A stretch of 47,319 nucleotides of DNA from an uncultured Alphaproteobacteria bacterium (GTDB taxonomy: Bacteria > Pseudomonadota > Alphaproteobacteria > HIMB59 > GCA-002718135), in the NCBI GenBank assembly GCA_902627245.1, contig CACOIH010000010.1, positions 1 to 47,319 of the forward strand. The letters are read 5' to 3'. This document shows, in pieces, positions 21,462 through 29,051 of this stretch. Below the pieces are notes generated by a model. It saw only the letters and a list, made by a program, of their open reading frames with translations, searched no databases and was not told the origin of the DNA. How positions within the stretch are numbered: the first letter of the stretch is position 1; each line of letters begins with the position of its first letter. Made by a program: the position numbers and the translations under genes.

Positions 21462-21536
21462 TGGCGGTCTCGTAGGGACTCGAACCCCAAATCCATGTTC
21501 CGAAGACACGTGTGATATCCATTTCACCACGAGACC
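21462..21536 (-). tRNA. tRNA-Arg, anticodon UCG, CCA encoded
   Basis: Reverse complement GGTCTCG TG GTGA AATGGATA TCAC A CGTGT CTTCGGA ACATG GATT TGGGG TTCGAGT CCCTA CGAGACC G CCA; all four stems pair. Confidence 0.96.
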
Positions 21537-24179: not shown

Positions 24180-25219
24180 TGTCTTTCAGTGTTATTGATC
24201 AATATAATAGTTTTGTTGAAAATAATTTTATAAAAACTAGTCAGGCTCAGCTAGAAGTCCTAAAAAAATTAAATTCAGTTTGGAAAAAAAATAATAAAAA
24301 TAGTCTATTTATTAAGTCTAAAAAAAAAGATGGCATTTATTTATACGGAACAGTTGGAACAGGAAAAACTTTTTTATTAAATCTTTTTTATCAAAACTCA
24401 AAAGTAGGAAAAAAAATACATTTTAATAACCTCATGATCAGAATTCACGAAGTAGTTCAAAGCTCTAACAATAAAGATAAAGCAATTGAAGAATATATAA
24501 AAAAAATCGGTAAAAATTTTAAAATTTTATTTATTGATGAAATGCATATATTTAATATTGTTGATGCACTGATTATAAAAAAGATATTTTTTCTATTAAA
24601 TAAGCACAATATTTTTATAGTTATTTCCTCAAATTTTAAACCTGATGATTTGTATAAAGATGGCCTCCAAAGAAATGATTTTATTCCATTTATTGAGCTT
24701 ATAAAAAGTAATTTTGAAATTATTAATATGAAACTTAGTACAGATTATAGAAGACAAACTTTAAATCAGTCAAAAACATACTTCACTCCAATAAATAATG
24801 AAACACGACAAGAATTTGAAATTTTATTTAATAAGTTTGTTGACAACACTCATTTAACTAAAATTATTATAAAATCTAATAGTAGAAAAATAGTATTTGA
24901 TAAATGTAGCTCAAATATTTTAATGACAGATTTTAAAAAATTATGCGAAGATAATTTTAGTCATCAAGATTATATCAATATATCAAAAAATTTTAATATC
25001 ATATTTCTAAATAATGTACCCGAACTTGATGATCAAAAAAAAGATTCTTGTAGAAGATTCATAAGCCTTATTGATATGCTTTATGAAAATAAATGTTCAA
25101 TAGTGATTCTTGCAGCAAAACCTATTTCTTCTCTAAATTCTATCCAAAGTCTAAATGATGAATTTAAAAGAACTGCTAGCAGACTATATGAAATGACAAT
25201 AGTCCAGCCTATAAAATGA
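24179..25219 (+). CDS. zapE: Cell division protein ZapE / AFG1-family ATPase
   Basis: GIYLYGTVGTGKTFLLNLFY Walker A; FKILFIDEMHIFNIVDALII Walker B; LSTDYRRQ. Confidence 0.92.
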   Translation: MSFSVIDQYNSFVENNFIKTSQAQLEVLKKLNSVWKKNNKNSLFIKSKKKDGIYLYGTVGTGKTFLLNLFYQNSKVGKKIHFNNLMIRIHEVVQSSNNKDKAIEEYIKKIGKNFKILFIDEMHIFNIVDALIIKKIFFLLNKHNIFIVISSNFKPDDLYKDGLQRNDFIPFIELIKSNFEIINMKLSTDYRRQTLNQSKTYFTPINNETRQEFEILFNKFVDNTHLTKIIIKSNSRKIVFDKCSSNILMTDFKKLCEDNFSHQDYINISKNFNIIFLNNVPELDDQKKDSCRRFISLIDMLYENKCSIVILAAKPISSLNSIQSLNDEFKRTASRLYEMTIVQPIK

Positions 25220-26202
25220 AAAGATTTTTAAAATATCTTATCAGCATATTTATTGTTTTATCTTTTATTTATTATGGCGCTGGTTTTTACGTAGCTTATC
25301 AAATTTTAAAAATCGATTATTCTTGTGGTATGCACGAAGGATCACTCCCAAATACTTGGAGTACATCGATTGATGCACATCAATATAAGGATATTTCTCA
25401 GAGAACACTTAGAGAAAACTTTCCATATGAAAATTATTATTTAGATGAGTGGCAAGACGTTTATTTTTTATCAAGAGAAGAAAATATTAAACTAAATGGT
25501 TGGCTATTTAATTATTTTCCAAATAGACCAATTATAATAGTTACACATGGTATAAATCCTAATGGTAAGTGCAAGTCAGAATCTAACTTAATTACGTCTC
25601 TTTTGGTTAAAAAAAAATTTAATGTTTTAACAATAGACTTAAGAAATTATGGTCAGAGTGACAGAACTTCGAAATATGAGGATTTAGGTTTAAAAAGTTA
25701 TAAAGATATTTTAGGAGCTTTTGATTTTCTTATTAATATTGGTTTTAAAAGTAATCAGATAGGTCTTCATGGAATTTCTCTTGGAGCAAGTACCTCTATA
25801 TTCGCAGCTCATGAAGAACCAGAAATTTTAGCAATCTGGTCCGATAGTCCAATAGCTGAATTTGGAATGGCGTTAACAGATGAAATAGCAAGGTATGGAT
25901 TATCAATCGAATTTGGTCCAGCAGTAAGTTTTGCTGGAAAAGTCTTAACTGGAATTGATCCTAGCTTATTATCTCCAGCTCTTAAACTTAGTAAAACACA
26001 GTCATATTTTTTTACACATGGCGACAAAGATACAAGAGTATTAACAAGACATTTTAAATTTTATGAGAGATATACTGTAAAAAATAAGATCAACGCGCAA
26101 TATTGGCTAGCAGAAGACTCCAACCATGTTGATAGCATGATAAAATACCCCGACGAATATGCTGATAAGATGGAAAATTTTTTTAATTCTGTTCTTGATT
26201 AA
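25216..26202 (+). CDS. Alpha/beta hydrolase with N-terminal membrane anchor
   Basis: IIVTHGINPNGKCKSES; LTIDLRNYGQSD; GLHGISLGAST nucleophile elbow. Confidence 0.85.
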   Translation: MKRFLKYLISIFIVLSFIYYGAGFYVAYQILKIDYSCGMHEGSLPNTWSTSIDAHQYKDISQRTLRENFPYENYYLDEWQDVYFLSREENIKLNGWLFNYFPNRPIIIVTHGINPNGKCKSESNLITSLLVKKKFNVLTIDLRNYGQSDRTSKYEDLGLKSYKDILGAFDFLINIGFKSNQIGLHGISLGASTSIFAAHEEPEILAIWSDSPIAEFGMALTDEIARYGLSIEFGPAVSFAGKVLTGIDPSLLSPALKLSKTQSYFFTHGDKDTRVLTRHFKFYERYTVKNKINAQYWLAEDSNHVDSMIKYPDEYADKMENFFNSVLD

Positions 26203-26206
26203 ATAA

Positions 26207-26344
26207 AGCCGGATATCTCAACTAGTTAGTACCTTGGCAGACACTTCTCTAGAATAGAAACTCATATAATCATCAAACGGCGGGTAAGATGATTAAAATC
26301 TCTTGGCGTTCCTCCGAAGCAAAGAAATTAAGCATTATCCGGCT
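26207..26344 (-). ncRNA. Candidate 6S RNA (ssrS-like)
   Basis: Perfect 9-bp closing stem (26336-26344/26207-26215), further G-U-containing helices, about 16/19-nt central bubble, terminal stem-loop; G-U pairs support minus strand; promoter-like boxes upstream. Confidence 0.62.
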
Positions 26345-26349
26345 ATGTT

Positions 26350-26378
26350 AGAATAATATCAAATTGTATAAAATTCAA
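26350..26378 (-). promoter_or_regulatory. Putative sigma-70-type promoter for the 26.2-26.3 kb RNA
   Basis: Minus strand TTGAAT (26378-26373), 17-nt spacer, TATTCT (26355-26350), 5 nt before the closing-stem A. Confidence 0.45.
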
Positions 26379-26558: not shown

Positions 26559-26930
26559 ATGATTGATAATCGTCCATTATCACCACATCTATCAATTCAC
26601 AAAAAGGTTCTTACAGCCCTTTTTTCAATATTCCACAGAATAACTGGAATTGGTTTAAGCTTAGGATCTATTCTAATTTCAATTTGGTTTTTACTTATAA
26701 GCCTAGGTCCAAATTATTTTGTATATTTTGAGATGATTTCAAAAAATATTTTATTTAAGTTTATTCTTTTAACTTGGACAATTGGGGTCTTTTACCATCT
26801 ATATAATGGCTGTAGAAAACTCTACTGGTCATTTGGAATTGGTATGGATTTAATTACTGTGTATAGATCTGGATATATAGTATTATTTCTAACACTTGCA
26901 TCTACTATATTAGTGTGGGTTCTAATATGA
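26559..26930 (+). CDS. sdhC: Succinate dehydrogenase cytochrome b556 subunit
   Basis: RPLSPHLSIHKKVLTALFSIFHRITGIGLSLG; HLYNGCRKLYWSFG. Confidence 0.95.
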   Translation: MIDNRPLSPHLSIHKKVLTALFSIFHRITGIGLSLGSILISIWFLLISLGPNYFVYFEMISKNILFKFILLTWTIGVFYHLYNGCRKLYWSFGIGMDLITVYRSGYIVLFLTLASTILVWVLI

Positions 26931-27265
26931 AAAATTATGCTTTAAAATGGGTAATTCAAAGAATTACAGCATCACTGCTTATACCATTAACTTTTTGGTT
27001 CATATATTCTGCAATTTCTCTTTCAAAAATGGAGTATGACGAAACAATTAGCTTCTTTCAGTCGTATTTGAACTCCTTTTTATTTTATGTAATGATGATA
27101 GCTATGCTTTTGCATGCAAAATTAGGCCTTCAAACAATAATAGATGATTATGTCACATCGAAAAAAATTTATAATTTAAGTAAATGGGGAATTAACTTAA
27201 CTTCGTATTTTTTAATGATATTATTAACTATTTTTATAATAAAAACTGCTATTTTTAATGTCTAA
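26927..27265 (+). CDS. sdhD: Succinate dehydrogenase hydrophobic membrane anchor subunit
   Basis: [45 protein letters not shown] 26927 in ATGA overlap with sdhC. Confidence 0.94.
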
Positions 27266-29051
27266 CTCATATAATATAATAGATCATCATTATGATGTTG
27301 TTGTGATCGGTGCCGGGGGATCAGGCTTAAGAGCAACTCTGGGATGTGCTGAAGCTGGTTTAAAAACAGCATGTATTTCAAAAGTTTTTCCCACAAGAAG
27401 TCACACCGTTGCAGCTCAAGGAGGAATTGGTGCAGCATTAGGAAATATGGGAGAAGATAATTGGAAGTGGCATATGTACGACACCGTTAAGGGGTCTGAT
27501 TGGCTGGGTGATCAAGATGCAATAGAATATTTATGCTCTAAAGCACCAGAAGCAGTAATTGAACTTGAGGACTATGGAATGCCTTTCAGCAGAACAGATG
27601 ATGGTAAGATATATCAAAGACCCTTCGGAGGTCATCTTACAAATAATGGTGAGGGTGCTCCCGCTATGCGAGCTTGCGCTGCTGCCGATAGAACAGGTCA
27701 TGCATTATTGCATACTCTTTATCAACAATCATTAAAAAACAATGTTGAATTCTTTATTGAATATTTTGTTCTTGATTTAATTTCAGATGATAATGGTAAT
27801 TGTATTGGAGCAGTTGCTTGGTGTCTTGAAGATGGTTCAATTCATCGGTTTTTATCTCATCAAACAATACTCGCTACAGGAGGGTATGGAAGAGCATATT
27901 TTTCATCAACTAGTGCTCATATCTGCACGGGTGATGGAAGTGCAATGGCACTAAGGCAGAATTTACCGTTGTCTGATATGGAGTTTATTCAATTTCATCC
28001 AACTGGTGTATATGGAGCTGGTGTCTTAATTACTGAAGGAGCCAGAGGAGAGGGCGGTTATTTAACTAATAGCGATGGTGAAAGATTTATGGAACGTTAT
28101 GCTCCAAATGCTAAAGATTTAGCTTCTAGAGACGTTGTGAGTAGGGCTATGACTATAGAAATAAGTGAAAATAGAGGATGTGGAGATAATGCTGACCATG
28201 TTCTTCTACATCTTGAACACATAGATGCTGACACTTTGCACAAAAGATTACCTGGAATCTCTGAAACTGCAAAAATCTTTGCTGGAGTAGATTTAACTAA
28301 AGATCCAATACCTGTTTTACCAACAGTTCATTATAATATGGGTGGAGTTCCTACAAATTATAGGACAGAAGTTCTAAGACCTACTAAACAAAATCCAGAC
28401 AATGTGTGTGAAGGTTTAATGGCAGTAGGAGAAGCGGCTTGCGTATCTGTACATGGAGCAAATAGGCTTGGAACAAATTCACTTATCGATTTAGTAGTTT
28501 TTGGTAAAGCTGCTAGTTTAACTTGTAAAGAAAAAGTAAGACCTAACTCAAAAAAAATTGAAATAAGTAAGTCTAAAACAGATGATATTATTCAAAGATT
28601 TGACAGGATTAGAAATAGTAAAGGTAGTTCAACGACTGGTGAACTTAGAACGACAATGCAACATGTTATGCAAAAAAAATGTGCTGTTTTTAGAACACAT
28701 GATTTAATTTCTAAAGGCATAGAAGAATACCAAGATATTGAAGGTTCAATGGATAATATTGATATTAAAGATAAATCACTTGTATTTAACACTGATCTTG
28801 TCGAAGCCCTAGAGCTTCACAACCTAATGGCTCAATCAAAAGTAACATTATACTCAGCTCTTAATAGAAAAGAAAGTAGAGGAGCACATGCTCGTGAAGA
28901 TTATAAAGATAGAGATGATAAAAATTGGTTAGTTCATTCTTTAGCTTGGTTGAATGAAAATGGTGATGTAAATATGGGTTCAAGAGCAGTTCATATGAAC
29001 ACATTAACAAACCATGTTCAGCCAATTCCACCTAAAAGAAGAGTTTATTAA
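27258..29051 (+). CDS. sdhA: Succinate dehydrogenase flavoprotein subunit
   Basis: [54 protein letters not shown]. Confidence 0.98.

Follow-up and report, generated by a model that had tools for sequence, protein, structure and literature searches.

A segment of the minus strand upstream of the sdh genes is almost certainly a real structured RNA gene, and comparison with relatives strongly supports its description as a stand-alone bacterial small RNA that is single-copy, has its own putative sigma-70-type promoter and diverges from sdhCDAB. The window, that is, the whole 47,319-nt stretch analysed here, forms contig C10 of a genome recovered to about 62%, and BLAST, covariance-model and folding evidence place the small RNA of about 139 nt at 26206..26344 (-). 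The original prediction, an unannotated structured RNA on the minus strand that has a promoter of its own, was borne out in the relatives by homologues, covariation, synteny and a strand test, and the small RNA matches no catalogued RNA family.

Locus and distribution among relatives

The small RNA lies between a convergent alpha/beta hydrolase gene (25216..26202, (+); Pfam PF00326/PF00561), which ends 3 nt from the 3' end of the RNA, and the divergent sdhC and sdhD genes (26559..27265, (+); sdhC by Pfam PF01127), followed downstream by sdhA (27258-29051, (+)). The convergent hydrolase gene and the divergent sdhCDA genes flank the RNA in all 49 loci examined, and BLAST against its own genome returned a single copy of the segment. 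Aligned relatives are 137-147 nt long, with about 171 nt in one genus that carries an extra hairpin; a protein-coding reading was rejected because the length differences within 137-147 nt are not multiples of three. Taken together, the segment has its own promoter, compensatory changes in a conserved fold, no coding character and a position outside mRNA leaders, as is generic for stand-alone small RNAs.

By BLAST, the segment was found in 42 of 101 genomes sampled from the genus and the order, every one of them in the same genus. Covariance model R1 extended the homologues to 80 of 163 genomes of the order, distributed over six genera of one family with E values down to 1e-38, and covariance model R2 gave no match outside the family among 388 class-wide genomes under Infernal's stricter filters. 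A 21-base exact pattern of hairpin C (described below) matched 37 contigs in a collection of genomes from 85,462 species, and the titles of these contigs named only uncultured Alphaproteobacteria, Proteobacteria, Pelagibacteraceae or Pelagibacterales. The carrier clade is probably the open-ocean AEGEAN-169/HIMB59 group (PMC10308909). The RNA is missing from 19 genomes of the same genus because the locus was not assembled: 14 of them gave no match to sdhA, and the remaining five have a contig that stops before the expected site. In the second family of the order (f2, HIMB59-type), sdhC is preceded by different genes and no RNA match was obtained even with the filters off; annotated phage records likewise gave no match to the small RNA. 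The open-access literature on small RNAs of this clade yielded only a passing joint mention of the two, and an earlier description may exist elsewhere, for example among ocean metatranscriptome small RNAs.

Strand, promoter and conserved fold

Base pairing in the relatives distinguished the two strands. Standard pairs filled 1603 of 1648 cells of the structural alignment when read on the minus strand (97.3%) versus 1446 of 1648 on the complement (87.7%), and the minus-strand reading contained 173 G-U cells versus 16 A-C cells. Judged by these counts, the minus strand is the functional one, as had been proposed from the G-U pairs of the single sequence. The predicted promoter withstood comparison as well: the -35 element TTGAAT (26373..26378, (-)) and the -10 element TATTCT (26350..26355, (-); TANNNT in relatives) are separated by exactly 17 nt, and the arrangement TTGAAW-N17-TANNNT recurs 5-7 nt upstream of the RNA in 46 of 49 loci with an invariable spacer of 17. 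The other three loci keep the -35 element and have a similar -10 hexamer that lacks the final T. The U-rich stretch noted at the 3' side was also found after the closing stem in most relatives. A pattern search for an intrinsic terminator found none, leaving the 3' end uncertain; it probably falls directly after the closing stem, at the U-rich stretch that reaches into the end of the convergent hydrolase gene.

Covariation supports a fold of two nested three-way junctions, in which the closing stem P1 surrounds P2 and hairpin C, and P2 in turn surrounds hairpins A and B. P1 pairs 26336..26344 (5' strand) with 26207..26215 (3' strand), both on the minus strand, and this perfect 9-bp closing stem, already recognised in the single sequence, was upheld by two-sided changes at five pairs; in G150/L082 its sequence is wholly different (GCUGAGUAG/CUACUCAGC) and pairing is retained. 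P2 joins CUC/CUU at 26330..26332 (-) to GAG at 26261..26263 (-), with 99.2% of cells paired, and in other genera it comprises 7-8 bp of different sequence, as in L080 (AUAAACUC/GAGUUUAU) and L147 (ACUCUAU/AUAGAGU). The 3' strands of P1 and P2 were assigned from covariation and from the folds of distant homologues. Hairpin A (26300..26326, (-)), with the consensus UUCUUnGCUUC-GGAG-GAACGCCnAGAA, exposes a GGAG loop at 26315-26312; 99.5% of its cells are paired, with two-sided changes at three pairs. Hairpin B (26267..26295, (-)) combines a covarying stem, with two-sided changes at five to seven pairs, and an invariant CCGCC loop (26283-26279). Hairpin C (26222..26252, (-)), CUAG-AGAA-GUGUCU-GCCA-AGGUAC-NNN-CUAG, carries a GCCA loop at 26238-26235 and an AGAA/NNN internal loop; all of its cells are paired, and its ten base pairs, among them two invariant G-U pairs, occur in every sequence.

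Across 44 distinct homologues, the conserved fold had 97.3% of its cells paired, versus at most 43% in slid controls. The compensatory changes that the original prediction had named as a check were present, with two-sided changes at 13 pairs (5.0 in shuffles) and in 59 cells (16.6 in shuffles) and a covariation score of 0.161 versus 0.099 in shuffles, counts that are biased in favour of the model since alignment A2 was fitted to its structure, and that leave invariant pairs (most of hairpin C and much of hairpin A) outside the reach of covariation testing. Extension of hairpin B to the CCGCC loop raised the totals to 15 two-sided pairs and 68 cells, but most members of the genus leave the first two of the added pairs open. 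Independent support for the branched fold came from single-sequence folds of the distant homologues L080, L082 and L147. The last (L147:2001-2171, minus strand; 171 nt) followed the same branched plan at -59.9 kcal/mol (z -5.06); its extra hairpin, about 30 nt long and found in this one genus, lies directly 3' of the P1 5' strand. Without a given structure, RNAalifold recovered P1 and hairpins A, B and C, and P2 too when covariation was weighted. In the window itself, the minus strand gave a minimum free energy of -41.5 kcal/mol (z -3.25) for 139 nt and -41.9 kcal/mol (z -3.80) for 151 nt with flanks, and the plus strand a z-score of about -2; such single-sequence values are suggestive only, as the complement scores equally or better in some relatives. 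We regard the existence of a structured RNA as settled because of conservation and covariation, not because of z-scores.

Conservation was unevenly distributed over these elements. Hairpin C had a mean column identity of 0.962, hairpin A of 0.943 and CCGCCG of 1.0, compared with 0.886 for P1, 0.793 for the stem of hairpin B and 0.59-0.74 for the linkers. CCGCCG is thus 100% invariant although the stem of hairpin B covaries. Stems of A and C that appear frozen beside freely covarying stems suggest recognition by a protein or a ribonucleoprotein, or a tertiary contact.

The same alignment bears on the 6S-like architecture that had been proposed from the single sequence, a rod with a closing stem, a large open bubble and a terminal arm. 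Only 66% of sequence cells hold a standard pair in its inner stem CUUAAUU/AGUUGAG, and CUUUG/CAAGG is broken at one pair in 19 of 44 homologues. The region assigned to the large open bubble is occupied by the highly conserved hairpins A (26326-26300) and C (26252-26222). Within the terminal arm, the UAAUCAUC/GAUGAUUA hairpin was confirmed, whereas AGAGAUU/AGUUUCU forms standard pairs in only about 89% of cells. The conserved branched fold had a lower energy than the rod-and-bubble fold in 44 of 44 homologues. The apparent 6S hallmark of this segment is, as far as the homologues indicate, an accident of one sequence, because the inner stem of the rod is unconserved and the branched fold wins in every homologue.

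Predicted function and alternative explanations

The segment matched no Rfam family at gathering score, and at E<=10 it returned only implausible eukaryotic chance matches far below the cut-off, so that the Infernal/Rfam comparison proposed earlier for 6S was negative at either threshold. In seven diverse homologue loci, the RNA had no match at E<=5. The only match at gathering level in the window was a tRNA gene at 21465-21536 (minus strand). The 6S identity (RF00013) was rejected on the Rfam result and on the unconserved rod fold, as the closing stem, central open-promoter-like bubble and terminal arm of 6S did not hold together in the relatives. Rfam 6S was found in none of 101 genomes of the genus and the order, with positive controls, including Caulobacter, scoring, and it scored in 144 of 193 alphaproteobacterial genomes sampled. 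The order without a recognisable 6S has either lost it or carries one that diverged past the Rfam model. Hfq (PF17209) and ProQ/FinO (PF04352) were each found in 0 of 12 genomes of the order, a set that included several over 90% complete, and the E. coli control was positive for both; a small RNA that depends on Hfq or ProQ requires a host that encodes either, and none of these 12 was found to do so.

We propose, with a probability of about one half, that the small RNA is a scaffold acting in trans: it would hold out hairpins A and C to a partner, either a protein or a ribonucleoprotein, and CCGCC may be a loop for pairing. A transcript of about 140 nt would be made on the minus strand from the predicted sigma-70-type promoter, and its junctions would display three near-invariant elements, the GGAG hairpin A, the CCGCC hairpin B and the GCCA hairpin C. 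The partner would grip hairpins A and C, which we infer because their stems are frozen like their loops, unlike an antisense seed, and the CCGCC loop could serve as a pairing site. Action would be independent of Hfq and ProQ because neither was found in the searched genomes. It is a bolder and unlikely proposal that this is a new RNA family, confined to one family of marine alphaproteobacteria, which joins a core machine, either RNA polymerase or the ribosome, in a ribonucleoprotein and fills a global-regulator role in cells without recognisable 6S, Hfq and ProQ. That a small RNA persists family-wide in nearly unchanged form at one locus, in small genomes where neither Hfq nor ProQ was detected, suggests that its function is important. 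The RNA offers a defined molecule for asking how regulation works in bacteria of this kind when the common RNA chaperones are missing, and ocean metatranscriptomes already available can be searched for it with the covariance model.

The most serious competitor to the scaffold reading, possible and yet rather doubtful, is an Hfq-independent antisense small RNA in which the CCGCC loop, being exposed, and perhaps also the GGAG loop would pair with mRNAs to repress or activate them. An invariant CCGCCG on a stem that itself covaries is what would be expected of a seed loop, and loop-seeded small RNAs that work without Hfq are known in streamlined marine bacteria (Yfr1-type). A seed alone, however, would not need the stems of A and C to be frozen like their loops. 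Furthermore, CGGCGGR sites were few in six genomes (4-8 on each strand, against 4-16 with the reversed control) with no conserved target, and a duplex scan of the gene starts in the window produced nothing convincing. A CGGCGGG site, complementary to the loop of hairpin B, does occur in or near mdh in two genomes (G138 C1:344906 and G119 C3:94353), about 3.6 kb from the small RNA in the same operon region, and is probably incidental. As an antisense target, mdh was rejected, for the site of G138 and G119 is absent in G125 and at the mdh start of the window.

It is highly unlikely that the RNA is a functional stand-in for 6S that binds the RNA polymerase holoenzyme through a different fold. Such a role would suit an order in which Rfam 6S goes unrecognised while most of the sampled alphaproteobacterial genomes score, and the size and closing stem fall within the 6S range; yet the promoter-like bubble is unconserved, with hairpins A and C filling its region, and no Rfam 6S score was obtained up to E<=10. 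The absence of 6S is not linked to the presence of this RNA, because neither Rfam 6S nor this RNA was found in family f2, so that loss of the one is not coupled to gain of the other. A cis-regulatory leader of the sdhCDAB operon on the plus strand, which would account for the invariable position upstream of sdhC and for a plus-strand fold that also beats shuffles, is very improbable given the poorer pairing of that strand and the excess of G-U over A-C cells reported above, a conserved promoter directed along the minus strand and a segment that ends about 215 nt before sdhC. The perfect 9-bp terminal inverted repeat could suggest a mobile or repeated palindromic element without a function of its own; this was rejected and has a negligible probability, as the segment is single-copy, its synteny is fixed in 49 of 49 loci and its stems show compensatory changes.

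Comparison with known bacterial RNAs

The structured RNA candidates described from 'Ca. Pelagibacter ubique' (PMC2704228) resemble the present case in being conserved intergenic RNAs of AT-rich marine alphaproteobacteria. The motifs listed in the abstract of that paper lie before rpsB, rpsL or ffh or are riboswitches, together with four further motifs, and the words sdhC and succinate are absent from its text. The small RNA is like 6S RNA (SsrS, RF00013) in being a bacterial RNA that stands alone, in its size class of 140-190 nt and in having a closing stem, whereas 6S is a rod with a central bubble and the RNA described here has nested three-way junctions and hairpins of extreme sequence conservation. 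The hairpin A run CGGA-GGAAC-GCCAAG resembles the tip motif of SRP RNA (CGGAAGGAAGCAGCCAAGG). The small RNA nevertheless has another fold and no match to the SRP covariance model, and the bacterial small SRP RNA (RF00169) was rejected since genuine SRP RNA was found at other loci in six of eight genomes, including G138, G119, G125, G102 and G150, with no model match here. The Yfr1-type RNAs of marine picocyanobacteria are Hfq-independent, and the present RNA resembles them in being short and stand-alone, in exposing an ultraconserved motif and in having streamlined marine hosts. Yfr1 is far smaller and unbranched, and it is by size and branching that the two are set apart, with no sequence relation claimed.
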